DNA of 6,956 nt, from assembly GCA_027347545.1 (NCBI GenBank), contig DAIEQT010000023.1, forward strand, positions 1 through 6,956, given 5' to 3'. A program made the position numbers and the translations under genes. Positions 1 to 6,956 of this stretch are shown here, in pieces. Below the pieces are notes generated by a model that saw only the letters and a list, made by a program, of their open reading frames with translations, ran no database searches and had not been told where the DNA came from. This DNA is from Ignavibacteria bacterium. GTDB lineage: Bacteria; Bacteroidota; Ignavibacteria; Ignavibacteriales; Melioribacteraceae. How positions within the stretch are numbered: the first letter of the stretch is position 1; the number at the start of each line of letters is the position of its first letter.

Positions 1-460
1 CTACAATGTAGGTCGAAACTCCGTTTCGACCGCTTGTCGGCGATTCGGAGAATCGCCCAACATTTATTGGTGTGAAGACCATATGCACATGATTCGGCAT
101 AATAGTGTAAGCAATTAGTTCGTATGTATTTCCATCGTAAAAATGAATTGCCTCTTTTACCTTTTCGGCAACCGCTTGTTGGATTAACCACCTTGCTTTA
201 CTTCTATACTTGTCTAAAATCGAATCAAACTTTTCAAAATAACTCGTTTGATAGTTCCGATACTGTTCCTTTTTTACTTTTTGATCTTCTATACCGGAAA
301 TTAATTTCAGTTGTGCTTCATGCTCAGTCTTTAATTTCTGTATCACGTAGAACGGCAGCGAACCCGTTAATCTGAACGTTACAAAGAATGTGCAACCCGG
401 TGGCTGATAATGAGGAAGGTGTCTTTGATAAAATATTTTTATTTCATCCCCGTGTGTCAT
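1..460 (-). CDS. REP-associated Y1 (HUH) transposase, RAYT/IS200-like, 3' end outside the window
   Basis: This is a partial gene that starts with ATG at 460-458 and remains open to base 1 (153 residues visible). Read by hand, the protein starts MTHGDEIKIFYQRHLPHYQP, followed by PGCTFFVTFRLTGSLP. This RHLPHYxPPGxxxFVTFRL opening is typical of REP-associated tyrosine transposases. The metal-binding HUH motif is seen as MPNHVHMVFT at residues 121-130, with H124 and H126. Members of this family make single-strand nicks at hairpins using one tyrosine; that tyrosine and the rest of the C-terminus lie beyond the window. Just after the HUH motif (from residue 135) the frame runs through a REP-like palindromic element and gives GRFSESPTSG and onward, which is not usual family sequence. 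No clear Shine-Dalgarno precedes the ATG. The frame stays open further upstream through another hairpin, so an earlier GTG start is possible. Family call is firm; whether the gene is still functional is unknown. Confidence 0.85.
   Translation of the reverse strand, partial: MTHGDEIKIFYQRHLPHYQPPGCTFFVTFRLTGSLPFYVIQKLKTEHEAQLKLISGIEDQKVKKEQYRNYQTSYFEKFDSILDKYRSKARWLIQQAVAEKVKEAIHFYDGNTYELIAYTIMPNHVHMVFTPINVGRFSESPTSGRNGVSTYIV
5..64 (-). repeat. REP-like twin-hairpin element, copy A (inside the transposase frame)
   Basis: Two perfect hairpins lie side by side. One has a 9-bp stem, GGTCGAAAC (11-19) with GTTTCGACC (23-31), loop TCC. The other has an 8-bp stem, GGCGATTC (39-46) with GAATCGCC (50-57), loop GGA. 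The outer flanks AATGT (5-9) and ACATT (60-64) are also complementary, so the whole element can fold as a three-way junction. It lies in the coding frame of the RAYT gene, directly after the HUH motif. The sequence CTACAATGTAG at the very edge hints that another unit may follow outside the window. Confidence 0.8.
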
Positions 461-499
461 AACTATTCTTTTTAGGTCACCGTTTACTTCCACCCTTTC

Positions 500-520
500 G
501 GGCGATTCAGAGAATCGCCC
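500..520 (-). repeat. REP-like single hairpin, copy B
   Basis: A perfect 9-bp stem, GGGCGATTC (500-508) with GAATCGCCC (512-520), loop AGA. It matches the second hairpin of copy A in stem and in the flanking TACATT, but the partner CGAAA-type hairpin is missing, so this is a half element. It sits 40 bases upstream of the RAYT start codon, in the position of the 5' leader, and could shape transposase mRNA or be a binding target for the enzyme. Confidence 0.7.
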
Positions 521-669
521 TACATTTGCACCGTATTTCAGAATTTCATTTCAACCAAAGCAATTTAGTGTTTTGTCCGTCTCTGCGCAAAATCACTTTA
601 TAATCTATTTTCTTCAATGGCGCTTCTTGATTAGTTTACTCGGCTTCAGTAGCGCTTGCAGATTGAGAC

Positions 670-721
670 TGTACGACGAAATTCCATTTCGTCCATGGGC
701 GATTTGAAAAATCGCCGTACA
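670..721 (-). repeat. REP-like twin-hairpin element, copy C
   Basis: Hairpin one is GACGAAAT (675-682) with ATTTCGTC (686-693), loop TCC. Hairpin two is GGCGATTT (698-705) with AAATCGCC (709-716), loop GAA. The outer TGTAC (670-674) pairs with GTACA (717-721). Stem sequences differ from copy A at several places, yet both sides change together so pairing is kept. It lies downstream of the four-gene operon in its direction of transcription and could slow or stop readthrough, but no run of T follows either stem, so it is not a classical intrinsic terminator. Confidence 0.75.
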
Positions 722-797
722 ATTAAGGGTGAGGTTGAAAAATTATTTTAGAACACAGCGCGGCTACGGTTTATGCAGCTTCTGTAGCGGTGATGCA

Positions 798-1673
798 TTA
801 AATACTTGAACTGTTATCCTCTGCCTTTTCCTGAAGCTGTTTCAGAGTCACCCCTTTCGAAGTTTTCCACCAGTCTCGCCCGTTAATATTTGCACCAAGA
901 AGGAAAGTAGCCGCTAAAGAAGGAGATGAAAATTCAAAGTCTTGTGATAATTCCAAATACTGGTCATCATGTCTTACCAAGAGACCGTTTTTCATGAAGT
1001 CATTACGGAGATCAATTACATATGAATGAATTGAGGGAACCGTTTCCATCACACAAGTTGCACCTTTCATTACCACAAAACCATCTTCAGACTCATAACC
1101 TTTAGCTTTGACACCTTTGTTCGTAAGTATAAGTATTTGACGTTGCTGAGGTTTTAATTCCGGTTTCTCAAAAACAGAAACTCCTAAAACAGGAAAACAT
1201 AATAGCATTTCATCAAGAAATGCTTCCATATCTGATTGCTCTGCCTCAGATAATGAAGGTGCACTTGGATCATTTTGATTATCAAGTTTACATCGTTTCG
1301 CTTCTTTCGCAATGCTTATTAGACGATGTTCCAAATATTCAATATGAGCTTTGTTAAGATTCAAATCTTTGCTTGTAAAGAAATAAGCAACTGTCCAAAA
1401 ATCTTTTTTTGAATGGTGATCTTCTAATCTTCCCTTTACTGGATCACCTTCACCAATGTACACTATAGGTAAATCAGAAGTATCCGACGGCCCAATTAAA
1501 ACATAAACAGCAGCTCGAGAAAATTCTATTCGATCCTTAACGCTTGATAATCTTGGACGTGGACAAACTACCCCAAGGCCTATCCAATTTGACTTCTCGA
1601 CAAACTTAAGTCCAGATGGGTTGCCTTCTGCGAGGAAAATACGAATGGAAAAAGATCGATGTTGATGTTCCAT
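798..1673 (-). CDS. GIY-YIG nuclease-fold protein with C-terminal DUF4357
   Basis: A 291-residue protein with a GIY-YIG core at about residues 54-132. The GIY strand appears as AVYVLIG (55-61), the YIG strand as VYIGEG (71-76), the catalytic arginine as GRLEDH (R82), the likely metal-binding glutamate in YLEHRL (E115), and a conserved asparagine near LDNQN (130-134). The segment LSEAEQSDMEAFLDEM (141-156) is a usual link in this subfamily. The C-terminus has the DUF4357 signature: FSSPSLAATFLLG (248-260), then NGRDWWK and GVTLKQL. GIY-YIG enzymes cut DNA with one metal ion; some are type II restriction enzymes (Eco29kI, Hpy188I), others repair or homing nucleases. Substrate is not predictable here. 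All catalytic positions appear present, so an active nuclease is plausible. It is the last gene of the operon, 2 bp after the methyltransferase stop, which favours a restriction-like role paired with that enzyme. Family call is firm, role is inferred. Confidence 0.88.
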   Translation of the reverse strand: MEHQHRSFSIRIFLAEGNPSGLKFVEKSNWIGLGVVCPRPRLSSVKDRIEFSRAAVYVLIGPSDTSDLPIVYIGEGDPVKGRLEDHHSKKDFWTVAYFFTSKDLNLNKAHIEYLEHRLISIAKEAKRCKLDNQNDPSAPSLSEAEQSDMEAFLDEMLLCFPVLGVSVFEKPELKPQQRQILILTNKGVKAKGYESEDGFVVMKGATCVMETVPSIHSYVIDLRNDFMKNGLLVRHDDQYLELSQDFEFSSPSLAATFLLGANINGRDWWKTSKGVTLKQLQEKAEDNSSSI

Positions 1674-1675
1674 GC

Positions 1676-2809
1676 TTAAACCTTCTTAGGTTTCAGTAAA
1701 AGTATTAACTCATTTGCGTTTCTGCGTGCGTCTCGCCCTGCTGCATTTTGATCTCCATTACTTCTTCCACCGAGCGAACTAAATTTACTTTCAACAGATT
1801 GCTCTTTAATCGAAAAATATTTTTCTGCAGTCTCTCTAACAATTTCACCTGAAAGTCCATTAGAACATTGGTGGTCTGGATATGTAAGAATTGCTTTAGC
1901 TTTTCTTGAGGAGATCTTCTTTAATAATTCGTCGAGAGCAGTCTGTGATTCTGAAATTATACTATATTTTGAACGCGGCCTCAGTTTTGGATCAGGGTAA
2001 CGACCAACACCAGAAACATCACCACATTTACCCCGTGCTATAGTTTCGAGGACATGATAAAAGCGACTATAATGAACACCGGAATAAGGTGGATCAATGA
2101 ATACCAAATCATTTTCTTTTAGCCGGGAAGCAATCTTATTTGCGTCTGCAACTTCTGCTACTCCTTTCTTTTTAGCCGAACGTGTTGCAAGAGAAGAAAA
2201 AATATTTTTTGTGACATGTGGAATATCTTTCTTCCATGCCTCTGCTAGATAAGGCTTTGCGGTTTTGGTTGGTTGAAAGGGTTGAGCTGTATGTCCAGGG
2301 GAGGCTGCACATTGGCTTGCAGCTTGAATTAATGCCGATAACGCTACTGTTCTTATTGTTTTATCTTTTGGTAAAGTAGTGCGCAGTGCATCTATCCATA
2401 CAGTCTGTAAAGGGCTAAAATAATGACCCCCATAAGCTTTAGTTATTGGAAGTTCATTCTGTCTTGCTGCCCAATTGCGACAATCATCAACAACACGTTG
2501 CGTGATTTTTTTTGTTGAAGGTATCCTATAGTGCCTTTTAATTTCCTTAGCCCTTTTCTCCCATTGATTCCAAACCGGTTGCCACTCTATTTCTTCGTCA
2601 CGACTAATGATTGCATTGGAAACAATGGTACTAAATAATTGAAGATCAAAAGCCTTTACGTGCACTTCATAGTTTTCCGCAACATGAGCAGCAACGATGC
2701 CGGAACCTGTAAAGGCATCAAAAAATCTATTCGAATCAACTATTTCTTTCTTAATAAGTTTACCCAATCCATTCTTCAGCATTAATCTTTTGGAACCCAT
2801 GTATTTCAT
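1676..2809 (-). CDS. D12-class adenine-specific DNA methyltransferase
   Basis: A 377-residue protein that most likely transfers a methyl group from S-adenosylmethionine to N6 of adenine in DNA. Motif X is YMGSK (3-7), the SAM-binding motif I is FDAFTGSG (30-37), and the catalytic motif IV is DPPY (239-242), followed by SGVHYSRFYHVLE. This X-I-(recognition)-IV order is that of the D12 (Dam/DpnM-like) family. The long stretch between residues 70 and 230, including GHTAQPFQPTKT (172-183), should hold the target recognition part. Dam-type enzymes are usually near 270-280 residues, so about 100 extra residues are present, partly after motif IV (GVGRYPDPKLRP, FSSLGG near 343-348). The start is 10 bp after the preceding stop, with only a weak RBS, which points to coupling. 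In context it may protect host DNA from the GIY-YIG protein, or place the mark that the module reads. The recognition sequence cannot be told from the protein. Confidence 0.93.
   Translation of the reverse strand: MKYMGSKRLMLKNGLGKLIKKEIVDSNRFFDAFTGSGIVAAHVAENYEVHVKAFDLQLFSTIVSNAIISRDEEIEWQPVWNQWEKRAKEIKRHYRIPSTKKITQRVVDDCRNWAARQNELPITKAYGGHYFSPLQTVWIDALRTTLPKDKTIRTVALSALIQAASQCAASPGHTAQPFQPTKTAKPYLAEAWKKDIPHVTKNIFSSLATRSAKKKGVAEVADANKIASRLKENDLVFIDPPYSGVHYSRFYHVLETIARGKCGDVSGVGRYPDPKLRPRSKYSIISESQTALDELLKKISSRKAKAILTYPDHQCSNGLSGEIVRETAEKYFSIKEQSVESKFSSLGGRSNGDQNAAGRDARRNANELILLLKPKKV
1681..1686 (-). promoter_or_regulatory. Ribosome binding site of the GIY-YIG gene, embedded in the methyltransferase 3' end
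   Basis: AGAAGG on the minus strand lies 7 nt before the ATG at 1673. It overlaps the Lys-Lys-Val codons that end the methyltransferase, so ribosomes finishing that gene pass directly over the site. This supports the chosen start and suggests coupled synthesis of the two enzymes. Confidence 0.7.
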
Positions 2810-2819
2810 AACATCACTA

Positions 2820-3659
2820 TCAAATTGAATGTATTAATTGTGGTTTTATTCTTTGGAAGTCTATAATGTCACGACACCAACTTGGATTTCTATGGACTGA
2901 CCAAAATCTATTTGAACCTCCCAAAGCATTGTCTAAAAGCTCTCTAAAATATACTAGACGATGATAAGCAACTATCTGAACAGAGTCTATATCTGGATAT
3001 TTTGTTCTCATCGGGATGGGATAAGACTTTATCTCAATTTTAGAGATGTATTCAATTCGTTTCTTTAATTCAATATAAGCTAGAGGTGAAAAATTAGGAA
3101 ATTTATTCAGATGATCTACATATGTTGCAAAATTCCGATGTCCTGCATCAGAAATATCAGAATCTTCAGGATTAATTGTGAATAATTGCTCATTAGATAA
3201 AAATGGATGTTCTTTAATCTTATTCCAATAAAAAGAATGTTCCCGATTTTTGCCTTTTTTGTAATTACAAATAAAGCCAGCTCGAGAAGATTGTAAACTT
3301 ACAGCAAAACTTTTACTTCGTAATTGGTAGAAACCTAATAAATGAGCTATAGCTCGAACCGAATAGTGGCTTGAATAGTAACCAGAAATAGACACCCATA
3401 ATGGGCTTACATTTATGAGTGCAGTGGATACTAGAAAACTATGGATAGCTCTTAACCACATTTCAATTGATGCTGTCGCAAAAAGTTTTACAATTTCTGG
3501 ATGAACTTGTACATCGAATGAATCTTGTTTAACTATATTTTTACTAAGACCATCTGTAATTTTATCTAGCTTTTGGGACATTATCCCATGTGGGGGAAAT
3601 GTGCCTTCTTGTGTTCGCAAGGTTTCAAATAGCTTCTGAATTTGAGCTTCAAATGTCAT
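2820..3659 (-). CDS. Unrecognised 279-residue operon protein
   Basis: I do not recognise this family. The protein has no signal peptide and no obvious membrane segment. It appears largely helical in its first half; residues 64-114 hold the most patterned segment, with MWLRAIHSFL (67-76), a run of hydrophobic positions, then SGYYSSHYSVRAIAHLLGFY (92-111). The paired tyrosines followed by aromatic and small residues recall the helix of HEPN-type proteins, but no clean Rx4-6H motif could be placed, so this is only a resemblance. The second half is rich in Lys, Arg and aromatic residues, with many His (GHRNFATYVDH 173-183, SVHRNPSWCRD 254-264), which could suit nucleic-acid binding. Its ATG overlaps the stop of the DGQHR gene (ATGA), so the two are probably translated together and may form a complex. 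Start choice is fixed by that overlap. Confidence 0.8.
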   Translation of the reverse strand: MTFEAQIQKLFETLRTQEGTFPPHGIMSQKLDKITDGLSKNIVKQDSFDVQVHPEIVKLFATASIEMWLRAIHSFLVSTALINVSPLWVSISGYYSSHYSVRAIAHLLGFYQLRSKSFAVSLQSSRAGFICNYKKGKNREHSFYWNKIKEHPFLSNEQLFTINPEDSDISDAGHRNFATYVDHLNKFPNFSPLAYIELKKRIEYISKIEIKSYPIPMRTKYPDIDSVQIVAYHRLVYFRELLDNALGGSNRFWSVHRNPSWCRDIIDFQRIKPQLIHSI

Positions 3660-5032
3660 TGAGAAATTTGTTCTCTCGAAAAATATTTATTGACAAAAGA
3701 TTTATTCTCTTCCGCTATAACACTAACTCGTTCTGGTCTTAATCGTGCAGTCTTTCTTCCCTTAGTTGAAGCCCATAGTAAATCTCTGAAATTGGCAATT
3801 CCCCCACTTCCTAAAAAACCTCTCTTCTTGAATTTATCTTTATCGATAAAAATTCCGTTATCAAGGAGCCCAGCATTCTGTGCTATTAACTTTAGAAAGC
3901 TAATAAGCACTTCACTTGCTTTATCTGAAATTAAAACAACTTTCTTTGTACGTAATTTCCAAAGTAACGCTGGAATTAATGCAAGAACTGAAACTAATAC
4001 ACGACCCTGATAAACTACGTTAGCCGGACTTAATTCTTTTTCTTCATGAGATATAGGATTTTCGAATCTTCCACTTGCTTGAAGCCATGAATTCAAACAT
4101 TGTGAAATAAATTCTGTTTGGCTGTTAATGTTGTTAATACCGTTTATTCTTAATACTTCAAGGATATCCTCAATAGCATTATTTAACGTTGCTAAAGTAA
4201 TTACATCTTTAAAACCAAACTTGATCCCAGGAATTTGAATCATGCCTACTAGTGGTCCAGTTTCAAGCATGAGTCTCCTGCCAATATCTTGAGCCCTTTC
4301 CTTATCATCCAGCGTTTTACGATCTCCACGAGCAGTTGGGAAAAGATCAGCGACTAAAGATCTATCAACTTTCTTTTGGTAAAAATTTACATCAATAAAA
4401 ATTTGTGCTTGTAACCTGGGTTTTCCTACTGGATCAAGATCCAAAAAGACTTCAGCAGCTAAATCCCAAGTTGCATTAGGATTGTTTTCCTGTAATATTT
4501 TAAGTGCAAGATAAGCACCGTTGACTCTATGTTGACCATCTATAACAGAAAAAAACAATTTGGGATCTTTCTCATCAAAACTTAAAACTCCAGCACGTTT
4601 CTTTTCACCATTAATCTCTTTTTCTCTTAATTCAGCCCCATTGATATGAACTAATATATTTGAGAATACACGATACTCACTTCTTTCAAAACCAATTACT
4701 TTACTGATTTTGGGTGGCCACTCCCTACCCGGTTCATTTTTTCTAGGTTCATAAATATTATTGAAGTATTTATCTAATTTGGTGGGTGCATCAACAATCT
4801 CACATTGGAGTAAATAAGCAGCAATTTGTGCAACTCTTTTCCAATCTAAAGAACGTTGAATAGCTTTTACTTTATCTGCGTTTCTGTGCGGGACATGGGG
4901 GGTACCCGGCCACCATTGCATAAGTTTTTCTACAGGCAACGCGCAAAGGCAATGTTTATATTCAGCGTATTCTTTGGTAAGAAATGGATTTTCTGGAACT
5001 ATTACAGATATCTCTTGAATTGAATCTGGCAT
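3656..5032 (-). CDS. DGQHR-domain protein (DndB-like, ParB/sulfiredoxin-type fold expected)
   Basis: A 458-residue protein carrying the name-giving motif at 165-169 inside FFSVIDGQHRVNGAY, preceded by a region of strands and short loops (RVFSNILVHING, 121-132). After it come VFLDLDP (195-201) and the segment IDVNFYQKKVDRSL (213-226), which is usual in the family. DGQHR proteins include DndB, the regulator of phosphorothioate DNA modification, and DpdB of the 7-deazaguanine DNA system; they are related to the ParB/Srx fold. At 458 residues this protein is longer than DndB proteins as I recall them, with an extra C-terminal helical part. No sulfur-transfer genes (dndACDE) or 7-deazaguanine genes are nearby, so it probably serves a different modification, most likely the adenine methylation of its own operon. 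It is the first gene of the operon, with a good RBS, consistent with a regulator or sensor. Family is firm; function is inferred. Confidence 0.88.
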   Translation of the reverse strand: MPDSIQEISVIVPENPFLTKEYAEYKHCLCALPVEKLMQWWPGTPHVPHRNADKVKAIQRSLDWKRVAQIAAYLLQCEIVDAPTKLDKYFNNIYEPRKNEPGREWPPKISKVIGFERSEYRVFSNILVHINGAELREKEINGEKKRAGVLSFDEKDPKLFFSVIDGQHRVNGAYLALKILQENNPNATWDLAAEVFLDLDPVGKPRLQAQIFIDVNFYQKKVDRSLVADLFPTARGDRKTLDDKERAQDIGRRLMLETGPLVGMIQIPGIKFGFKDVITLATLNNAIEDILEVLRINGINNINSQTEFISQCLNSWLQASGRFENPISHEEKELSPANVVYQGRVLVSVLALIPALLWKLRTKKVVLISDKASEVLISFLKLIAQNAGLLDNGIFIDKDKFKKRGFLGSGGIANFRDLLWASTKGRKTARLRPERVSVIAEENKSFVNKYFSREQISQ

Positions 5033-5039
5033 TGTTTAT

Positions 5040-5043
5040 CCTC
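5040..5043 (-). promoter_or_regulatory. Ribosome binding site of the DGQHR gene
   Basis: GAGG on the minus strand, 7 nt before the ATG at 5032. It is among the best Shine-Dalgarno matches in the window and supports this start for the first gene of the operon. Confidence 0.65.
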
Positions 5044-5057
5044 GTTGCAATTGTAAA

Positions 5058-5065
5058 TAAATATA
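5058..5065 (-). promoter_or_regulatory. Possible promoter -7/-10 element of the four-gene operon
   Basis: TATATTTA in an A+T-rich leader, 25 bases before the start codon, resembles both the TAnnTTTG box of Bacteroidota and a sigma-70 -10 box. No convincing upstream partner (TTTG or TTGACA at the right distance) was found, so this is a weak call. Confidence 0.2.
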
Positions 5066-5199
5066 AATACTAAAAACTATCATTCGACCGCCCCTTAGTG
5101 GCAAATGCAAGTTAGAATAAAATCCAAACTATATCAAAAGAAATTTTGGGTTATAAAAAGGAAAGGTCAAAAGTGAGACGTGAAAGGCAAAAAGATAAA

Positions 5200-5234
5200 C
5201 TGATGGCTAATGGCTGATAGCTGAACGCTGACGG
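5200..5234. repeat. Degenerate 7-bp microsatellite, five units
   Basis: Five consecutive heptamers fit CTRANNG without any gap; the first is CTGATGG. A shorter run of two related-looking but different heptamers (GTGAGAC then GTGAAAG) lies at 5173-5186. Such arrays usually arise by replication slippage; no function is suggested. Confidence 0.7.
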
Positions 5235-5306
5235 CAAGCAGCTTCTCCTCCAATCCCCTAAAAACCCTCATTTCTCCCCCAAAACGCATATTTACCCCTC
5301 CGGAAA

Positions 5307-5579
5307 GTCTTCACAACCCTTTGGAAAGTCTTCCCGACCCTTTGAAAACCTTTCCTGACCCATTTGAAAGTCTTCCGAAGTCATTTAAAAGTCTTCCCAA
5401 GCCGTTGGAAAGTCTTCCCAAGTCATTTAAAGGTCTTCCCAAGCCGTTGGAAACTATATTTGATTCGCTGGAAACTCTTCCGAAGTCATTTGAAGGTCTT
5501 CCCAAGCCGTTGGAAAGTCTTCCGGAGTCATTTGAAAATCGTCATTAGTCATTGGAAAGATTTCGCAACTCGCCGGAAA
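5307..5579. repeat. 21-bp tandem repeat array, 13 units, no spacers
   Basis: Thirteen units of exactly 21 bp follow each other with no insertion or deletion. The commonest form begins GTCTTCC and ends TTGGAAA; three units (5391, 5433, 5496) are identical. Two types alternate for much of the array: one with CAAGCCG in the middle, the other with GAAGTCA or CAAGTCA followed by TTTRAAR. The unit at 5454 is of the first type but diverged and breaks the alternation. Units at both ends are more degenerate than those in the middle, as in ageing slippage arrays. The junction GGAAAGTCTTCC is a near-palindrome. The array begins 11 bases after the argS stop. The 21-bp period equals two turns of B-DNA, which would place each unit on the same helix face. 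Confidence 0.95.
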
Positions 5580-5590
5580 TCATTCCCGAT

Positions 5591-6956
5591 TTACATTTTC
5601 TCCGGTGCGTTGACGCCGAGGATTGATAGCCCGTTCCTAATTACGGTTTGGACTGCAATGCAAAGTGCGATGCGCGCTTCGGCAAGTTTCTTTTCGCTTC
5701 CGATTATACGGCACTCGGTATAAAAGCGGTGGAACAATGCGGCAAGTTCTTCAAGGTAAGTTGTAATGCGGTGCGCTTCAAAATTTTCCGCGCTGTAAAT
5801 TATTTCATTCGGGAATTCATGCAGCTTTTTTAGAAGATTTTGTTCTTCCTTTGCAACTAGCAGATTCAAATTCTCGGCAGAACTTTTCAGCCCTTCGTCA
5901 TTGGTCGTTCGAAGAATTGAAGAAATTCTTGCGTGAGCATACTGAAGATAAAAAACCGGATTGTCATCGGACTGTTTCTTCGCCAATTCAATGTCGAAGT
6001 TCAAATGACTCGTTATACTTCTCATATTGAAAAAATATCTCACCACGTCGCTGCCCACTTCATCAACCAATTCATCTAGCGTAATGTAGTTTGCCTTACG
6101 CGTGGACATCTTAACAACTTCCCCCTTCTGCATAATTGTTACGAACTGATGAATCAAAACTTTTATTTTGCCGTCATCGTAACCGAGCGCGCGCAGACCG
6201 GCAAGTACATCGGGATATGTCGCGTTGTGGTCGGAACCGAATAGATCGATCATCAAATCGTATCCGCGTTCGTACTTCGTGATGTGATACGCAATGTCGG
6301 GCAGTCTGTAAGTGGGCTCGCCGCTCGATTTGACAATTACTTTATCCTGCTCGTTGCCGAGTTCGGTAAGCTTAAGCCAAACGGCGTCTTCCTTTTCGTA
6401 AGAAAGATTTTTCTTCTTGAACTCGTCAAGGAGCGATTTGATCTTTCCATCTTCATACAACGTGTGCTCGTTGTAAAAGTTTTTCATCTTTATGCCGATG
6501 CGTTCCATCGTCTTGATGATATCGGCAAAGATTTCTTTTTCGGCTCGCTGCTTAAATATTCCTTCGGGACTTTCGTTAATAAGTTTATCGCCGTTTTCGT
6601 TTTTCAACGCGGCGGCAATTTCTTTTATATACTCGCCTTGATAATAATCTTCCGGGAAATCAATTTTTTGTCCAAAAAGTTCAAGGTAGCGCAGCTTAAC
6701 GGAATCGCCGAGAACACGCATCTGCCTTCCGGCATCATTGAAATAATATTCACGGTCAACTGTGTACCCGATCCATTCGAGCATATTCGAAACCGTATCG
6801 CCGACCACGGCTCCACGGCCGTGTCCAACCGTCAAAGGTCCGGTTGGATTTGCCGATACGAATTCGACCATCACTTTTTTGCCGGTGTGAATTGCCGCGC
6901 GTCCGAAATTTTTTCCATGCTGAAGAATTTCATTAATAATTTTTGTGTTGTATGAC
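5591..6956 (-). CDS. argS: Arginyl-tRNA synthetase, 5' end outside the window
   Basis: The reading frame is open to the right edge; 454 residues are visible out of the roughly 550-580 usual for the enzyme, so the N-terminal additional domain and the start codon are missing. It charges tRNA-Arg with arginine in the cytoplasm. The class I signature region is seen as FVSANPTGPLTVGHGRG, whose VGH is the HIGH-motif equivalent, and the second signature as VVKMSTRKANYITLDEL (KMSKS region). The DALR anticodon-binding domain follows, with PVFYLQYAHARISSILR, and the protein ends with the typical NGLSILGVNAPEKM. The frame upstream of the first internal methionine (6874) also reads as synthetase (NEILQHGKNFGRAAIHTGKK), which shows the gene continues past that point. 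Base composition is richer in G+C than in the neighbouring operon. It is a core gene and probably marks the boundary of the accessory segment. Confidence 0.97.
   Translation of the reverse strand, partial: SYNTKIINEILQHGKNFGRAAIHTGKKVMVEFVSANPTGPLTVGHGRGAVVGDTVSNMLEWIGYTVDREYYFNDAGRQMRVLGDSVKLRYLELFGQKIDFPEDYYQGEYIKEIAAALKNENGDKLINESPEGIFKQRAEKEIFADIIKTMERIGIKMKNFYNEHTLYEDGKIKSLLDEFKKKNLSYEKEDAVWLKLTELGNEQDKVIVKSSGEPTYRLPDIAYHITKYERGYDLMIDLFGSDHNATYPDVLAGLRALGYDDGKIKVLIHQFVTIMQKGEVVKMSTRKANYITLDELVDEVGSDVVRYFFNMRSITSHLNFDIELAKKQSDDNPVFYLQYAHARISSILRTTNDEGLKSSAENLNLLVAKEEQNLLKKLHEFPNEIIYSAENFEAHRITTYLEELAALFHRFYTECRIIGSEKKLAEARIALCIAVQTVIRNGLSILGVNAPEKM

Follow-up and report, generated by a model that had tools for sequence, protein, structure and literature searches.

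Relation to described systems

The closest systems described so far combine a HEPN protein with a ParB-type protein and a DNA methylase. Passages of a 2013 survey describe the HEPN of the HEPN_MAE_28990 family as 'in operon with a ParB nuclease and DNA methylase genes' (Anantharaman et al. 2013, PMC3710099), and passages of the same survey also list a ParB-HEPN fusion, Saro_3948 (PMC3710099). Here we describe an operon in a 6,956-nucleotide stretch of DNA from an Ignavibacteria bacterium (draft genome G000, 75% complete, contig C380, positions 1-6956; this whole stretch is called the window). It encodes a DGQHR protein (gene A), a protein dark to Pfam (gene B) and a D12-class adenine methyltransferase (gene C), with an optional fourth gene, D. 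A-B-C is a conserved three-gene operon, and there is somewhat less than an even chance, judged from sequence comparison, that it is a defence module in which a methylation-guarded switch acts on B as the predicted effector. The four genes in the window are as follows.

3656-5032, minus strand: gene A, DGQHR (DndB-like) protein, 458 amino acids (aa), complete open reading frame (ORF)
2820-3659, minus strand: gene B, Pfam-dark protein, 279 aa, predicted HEPN-like fold, complete ORF
1676-2809, minus strand: gene C, D12-class N6-adenine DNA methyltransferase, 377 aa, complete ORF, assigned from PF02086, motifs and conservation over 20 rows
798-1673, minus strand: gene D (optional), complete ORF of 291 aa, GIY-YIG-like protein containing DUF4357, assigned from PF14267 and PDC-S14

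Like A-B-C, the HEPN_MAE_28990 operons bring together a ParB-type protein, a HEPN protein and a DNA methylase. At the PF18737 (HEPN_MAE_28990) loci L119-L125 (loci carry L numbers and genomes G numbers throughout) the next gene has a DGxQR motif in all seven cases, and in most of them it overlaps the HEPN gene or lies within a few bases of it. These neighbours read DGLQR, DGSQR, DGVQR or DGQQR and are, by motif alone, of the DUF262/GmrS type, whereas the A protein of the window has DGQHR. B differs from HEPN_MAE_28990 in that it matches no Pfam model at E≤1, PF18737 included, and has Rx4Y; PF18737 has no match in genome G000 either. Saro_3948 is probably the 769-aa DGQHR protein of Novosphingobium pNL1 (L043), the two being linked by genome name only. 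Fusions of this sort next to a D12 gene are found within the window's phylum at L054 and L057, where the gene after D12 encodes a DGQHR protein of 760-780 aa, with overlaps of 4 and 1 bases, whereas in the window A and B are separate genes. The C-termini of both fused proteins carry RNxxxH, in contrast to the Rx4Y of B, and that of L054 matches HEPN_Swt1 with E 1.3e-5 and 25.8 bits, below the cut-off of 27.5.

The operon is also distinct from the Dnd/Ssp systems (DndB, SspE). A scores 21.8 bits against the DndB equivalog TIGR03233, for which the cut-off is 328, and was rejected as a true DndB. In the 23 host genomes, many of which are incomplete drafts, the DndC model finds no match at E≤0.001 (five of 14 control genomes match below the cut-off), and the DpdA model finds one, G398 (L148), a strong match on another contig. 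A dnd or dpd remnant was rejected on these three results; the module recurs without dnd or dpd genes, which the sequence-only reading had named as support for a system. The Dpd system is similar in that DpdB is itself a DGQHR protein, and six of seven distant DGQHR proteins match the PADLOC model of DpdB, two of them weakly; it is dissimilar in that PADLOC assigns A to DndB alone (weakly, 20.5 bits) and in that there is no DpdA at the locus. The models of PDC-S14, a candidate system of PADLOC, describe a protein alone, whereas here that protein stands in a methyltransferase operon, in six of 22 loci and in the window. Finally, A-B-C resembles a type II restriction-modification (R-M) system in having its own adenine methyltransferase and partners that would act on unmarked DNA, and differs from it in that the core contains no recognised cognate endonuclease, the partners being ParB-type and HEPN-like.

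The A-B-C set has no name in Pfam, the PADLOC protein models, NCBIfam or PHROGs. Of its members PADLOC names C (type II methyltransferase) and, weakly, A (DndB), along with D (PDC-S14); B receives no name from it. A set of DGQHR, HEPN and D12 proteins is not described in the parts consulted of PMC4619093, PMC11090510, PMC10853773, PMC12704722, PMC12839542, PMC8649781, PMC3710099 and PMC5512222, preprints and supplementary tables lying outside this scope. To judge from passages of the 2013 survey, the general kind was foreseen there (PMC3710099), and no name for the branch with a DGQHR-type A, a Pfam-dark B and a D12-class C was found in these libraries and papers.

A conserved three-gene operon

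The sequence-only reading had proposed a compact module of four genes on one strand, and the ORF coordinates agree with its spacings: A and B overlap by 4 bases, B and C are separated by 10 bases, and C and D by 2. The search for further loci used B only (a 30-row alignment), so its outcome does not presuppose any neighbouring gene. It returned 22 genome loci and one viral contig. A lies directly upstream of B in 19 of the 19 loci with room for it, the contigs of L006, L016 and L024 beginning 132-150 bases before B; the A of L020 is a 201-aa fragment and the B of L024 is truncated. C, of the same D12 family, lies directly downstream of B in 18 of the 22 loci. A different D12 gene stands beside B in L010, on the opposite strand, and in L013 (PF02086, 155 and 151 bits), and no methyltransferase adjoins B in L006 and L014, the nearest D12 gene of L014 being 1.9 kb away. 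C or another D12 gene is therefore found beside B in 20 of 22 loci, which suggests that some D12 enzyme is kept rather than one particular enzyme.

These loci come from about nine phylum-level lineages, going by the names given in the sequence records. A or C accompanies B in Ignavibacteriales, Bacteroidetes, Planctomycetota, Acidobacteria, Elusimicrobia, Verrucomicrobia, Syntrophales, Patescibacteria and Troglogloeales, and in Firestonebacteria the B locus has another D12 enzyme. Most adjoining genes overlap or stand a few bases apart; where an overlap is larger, this arises from taking the first start codon. Since the same neighbours recur in order across distant genomes, their association is far beyond chance. 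The module is nevertheless rare: among 395 genomes of the window's phylum B has one strong match, in its own genome, and one weak match, and among 347 genomes of the phylum of L014 the A protein has one strong match, in L014's own genome, and four weak ones. A tblastn search of plasmids with A and B gave no match. Other defence genes lie near some of the loci, including type I and Eco57I R-M genes and an EcoRI methylase with GmrSD-HNH.

The fourth gene does not share this constancy. D adjoins A-B-C in six of the 22 genome loci, the window being additional, and in one of these, L019, it is upstream of A. Recurrence in distant genomes is thus seen for A-B-C together, with D usually not among them, and the unit has three genes, not four. 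No recurrent fourth gene is seen after C in the gene lists of the loci. A hidden fourth restriction gene at the loci lacking D was considered and rejected, the genes after C in L019 and L020 and the fourth gene of the Rhizobium locus described below having no Pfam match at E≤0.01.

The proteins of the operon

A belongs to the DGQHR family (TIGR03187, 82.6 bits against an NCBIfam cut-off of 58.85) and also passes the Pfam DndB model (48.7 bits, cut-off 29.1). Its DGQHR pentapeptide, residues 165-169, is invariant across 58 rows. The protein is predicted to consist of a ParB/Srx-type domain (about residues 12-220) and a helical C-terminal part, and Foldseek finds no significant match for it. A is the best conserved of the core proteins: its identity to the window is 57-67%, excluding the nearest relative, L003, and the L020 fragment, against 41-57% for B and 45-61% for C in the same comparison.

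B has 272 relatives in the protein database, and its lack of a Pfam match at E≤1 extends to PADLOC, NCBIfam and PHROGs. A HEPN-like fold is predicted for it. In the PDB phmmer finds two matches for B, both weak (E 1.3-1.4), and the best Foldseek match is also weak, with E at least 0.88; 1ufb we take to be a HEPN protein. An R175-x4-Y180 motif is kept in 89 of 89 rows and falls at the end of a predicted helix, 171-180. B departs from HEPN RNases, which carry a catalytic Rx4-6H motif at the end of helix 3, in having Rx4Y in place of Rx4H; for some HEPN families the motif is reported to be lost or varied. The constant partner is B rather than D, and B is also the likely effector.

C is a D12 methyltransferase (PF02086, 60.9 bits, cut-off 22) with FTGSG at residue 33 and DPPY at 239. 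By script matching, DPPY is present in 20 of 20 rows and FxGxG in 16 of 20.

D matches PF14267 (DUF4357) with 60.9 bits (cut-off 38.4) and PDC-S14 of PADLOC with 325.3 bits (E 8.4e-98), and no Pfam GIY-YIG model at E≤1. Its N-terminus reads VYVLIG..VYIGEGDPVKGRLEDH, and residues V71, Y72, G74, R82 and E115 are conserved in seven of seven relatives. In the window and in L003, L016, L018 and L021, D either overlaps C or is separated from it by at most 2 bases. Searches of the whole host genomes at E≤0.001 find D in eight of 22, once weakly (5.8e-5), and leave it unmatched in 14; six of the seven strong matches are at the A-B-C locus. Within the window's phylum D is present in 11 of 148 genomes, its own included, and no DGQHR gene was flagged within about 5 kb either side of it in eight of the ten other genomes with D or in G402 (at L116, one of these regions, D itself was not called by the script). 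On a tree of 15 D proteins, D must have changed at least twice between linkage to A-B-C and a stand-alone state. Given its presence at six of 22 loci and its repeated joining on the tree, D is a candidate mobile nuclease and not part of the operon core, contrary to the earlier proposal that it was a fixed nuclease of the module.

Distant DGQHR modules

The idea that a DndB-like protein is paired with adenine methylation was upheld beyond the A-B-C loci, since distant DGQHR genes are also found beside D12 methyltransferases. On Rhizobium plasmid pRt932 a DGQHR gene is followed by a gene for a 423-aa protein, a C-type D12 gene (49% identity to the window) and a further gene of no recognised family, and on Zymomonas pZZM405 by a gene for a relative of the 423-aa protein (28%) and a Dam-type D12 gene. 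Viral-contig relatives of C show the order DGQHR, HEPN-like, D12 in five of six cases, an arrangement that the Rhizobium and Zymomonas loci share. At viral DGQHR loci in general a gene with methyltransferase motifs lies beside the unit in 12 of 16, and the five tested against Pfam are all D12. An Acinetobacter phage has an N6_N4 methyltransferase, a DGQHR protein and a 294-aa protein with RNxxxY. In a second class, seen on Acinetobacter pTR3_1, a Roseateles plasmid and many viral contigs, a small membrane protein precedes the DGQHR gene and D12 stands beside it. Loci of this composition, on the same strand or convergent, are L128-L132, L134-L138 and L141, and L042, L047 and L052; for the DGQHR proteins of L128 and L141 PADLOC gives no scores other than DpdB. 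Methyltransferases were flagged by motif and membrane proteins by hydropathy; Pfam assigns 14 of 15 neighbouring methyltransferase genes to D12 and one to N6_N4 (L068, L010, L013, L014, L052, L054, L128, L129, L132, L136, L137, L041, L047, L049 and L057). L126, in which the B gene trips the methyltransferase motif by chance, is excluded from the count.

Kinship of B with the partner proteins of Rhizobium, Zymomonas and L068 was rejected, hhalign finding none (E 0.32-0.34); between these partners and other partners it finds a weak similarity (E 0.015). The link of these partners to B therefore consists only of synteny with C and the YY and RNxxxY signatures. The YY signature occurs in five of ten downstream partners of at least 200 aa and in 12 of 155 other genes, the pattern having been picked after some of the partners were viewed. 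RNxxxY occurs in seven of 13 partners against four of 469 background genes, a pattern picked after some partners were viewed; the 13 comprise three plasmid partners and one phage partner picked by hand, five from the census, and four neighbours without the signature. R[ND]xxx[YH] is absent from the partners of L127 and L133, which are outside these 13. Partner types cluster in a quick tree built from 55 DGQHR rows picked by hand, with three changes, the minimum, against a mean of 25.3 after shuffling; the methyltransferase label requires six. The branches of this tree are long and its labels come from the script, L043 being a fusion by label only.

In the window's phylum the DGQHR family model finds members in 19 of 296 genomes, and in a Planctomycetota sample in 20 of 246 (L070 and L086, with no ORF passing the script's DGQHR test, are left out of the neighbour counts). 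Nine of 17 readable Planctomycetota DGQHR genes have no same-strand neighbour within 60 bases, and several DGQHR-HEPN pairs have no methyltransferase nearby. Both observations speak against a universal rule and indicate that DGQHR proteins are not always partners of methylation. A Planctomycetota group of about 370-440 aa (L071-L078, L080-L082) has no constant partner and is probably not a defence module. Genes for BglII/BstYI-type restriction endonucleases lie near DGQHR genes on Acinetobacter (L042) and Rhizobium (L044) plasmids. On a Providencia plasmid (L045) a DGQHR and HEPN-like pair is located between umuD and umuC, and on a Sinorhizobium mexicanum plasmid (L046) the DGQHR gene overlaps a small GIY-YIG nuclease gene by 4 bases.

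Genomic setting of the operon

Two further features of the window flank the operon.

5591-6955, minus strand: argS, flanking core gene, running off the end of the window (TIGR00456, 372 bits)
2-493: REP/IS200-type transposase-like ORF (Pfam, 20.5 bits, below the cut-off of 23)

The operon lies, as the sequence-only reading had it, between a core gene and a possible mobile-element remnant, the transposase-like ORF on one side scoring below its cut-off. On the argS side the site seems to be variable. A gene that we take to be comF-like directly adjoins argS in G333, a genome of the same genus; G035 and G019 have other genes in between, and in L003 the interval contains the A-B-C-D operon and two extra genes. 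The names comF-, xdhC- and ORF6N-like for argS neighbours are presumptive. The G+C content is 0.31-0.41 in the operon and 0.42-0.44 in argS, and the operon is likely to have been acquired. As an observation in its own right, the interval between argS and the comF-like gene (L106, L107, L108 and L003), empty or variably filled, is a minor hot spot for integration. An array of 21-base tandem repeats (5281-5595) lies between the operon and argS and is crossed by short ORFs on both strands that are probably non-coding. A palindrome-like repeat, GGCGATTC..GAATCGCC, which looks like a member of the REP element family, is present in three copies (39-65, 501-527 and 698-724) around the transposase-like ORF.

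Proposed mechanism and alternatives

We suggest, with a confidence that falls a little short of even, that A-B-C is a methylation-guarded defence switch. C is predicted to methylate adenines and so to mark self DNA. A would be a ParB-fold switch, driven by nucleoside triphosphate, that reads the methyl mark or the presence of C, and B, predicted to be HEPN-like, would be the effector, kept in check or set free by A. The trigger for A would be the arrival of DNA without the methyl mark, likely that of phages or plasmids, or else a failure of C; A would then free B, which may attack RNA or otherwise stop the cell. Where D is present it may add a predicted cut in DNA. The proposal draws on gene order and recurrence, on the family matches of A, C and the DUF4357 of D, on the other D12 enzymes in two loci without C, and on the pairing of DGQHR proteins with HEPN-like or membrane partners and D12 elsewhere.

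The main rival, which we consider unlikely, holds that A-B-C is a modification complex in which A powers or targets methylation and B is structural, with a dead HEPN fold, while D or another nuclease restricts. It gains from the analogy with DpdB, described in parts of PMC12839542 as the ATPase for dPreQ0 insertion. The absence of the HEPN histidine from B would fit it too, as would the recruitment of D at least twice, to a position within 2 bases of C or overlapping it in the five cases given above. However, D is unmatched in 14 of 22 host genomes and no other recurrent fourth gene is seen that could restrict in its place, and the fused DGQHR proteins have HEPN-type RNxxxH motifs. To our knowledge D12 enzymes need no ATPase, which we also count against it.

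R-M systems can behave as addiction units, and A-B-C might accordingly be a selfish unit for addiction or element protection: cells that lose the methyltransferase would be killed by A-B, and locus and carrier would thereby persist. We regard this as improbable: many distant copies are indeed in viral contigs or plasmids, but such a reading is compatible with defence too, and the B-type loci themselves are in 22 metagenome-assembled genomes and one viral contig, with no plasmid match for A or B. It is quite improbable that A is the transcription regulator of the operon, like the DndB of Salmonella, with C and D an ordinary R-M pair and B unrelated to defence. There is a precedent, since parts of PMC10853773 and PMC12704722 report DndB as an ATP-dependent repressor, but it is A and B that stay together and D that varies, A is better conserved than either B or C, and pairs of DGQHR and HEPN genes are seen repeatedly with no methyltransferase. 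That the genes came together in a defence island by accident and have no joint function is very improbable and, despite the other defence genes near several loci, is already contradicted for A-B-C by 19 of 19 A-B pairs and D12 beside B in 20 of 22 loci in about nine phylum-level lineages with mostly tight junctions, so that it remains for D only, which also stands alone in the window's phylum (11 of 148 genomes, its own included).

Returning to the methylation-guarded switch, a broader proposal, more apt to fail than to hold, is that A-B-C may be one branch of an extensive immune class that has no name. In this class a DGQHR switch of ParB fold would read the cell's own adenine methylation and unleash interchangeable effectors (HEPN-like proteins, fused HEPN RNases or small membrane proteins), and B, with Rx4Y as its active site, would found a HEPN family of its own. 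If this is true, the many DGQHR/DndB-like genes annotated as sulfur-modification genes in genomes without that modification would gain a job, that of watching adenine methylation. A single compact operon would unite R-M and abortive infection, a nucleotide switch of ParB type connecting mark and effector, and the B family, with its 272 relatives and no name in four libraries, would obtain a testable identity.

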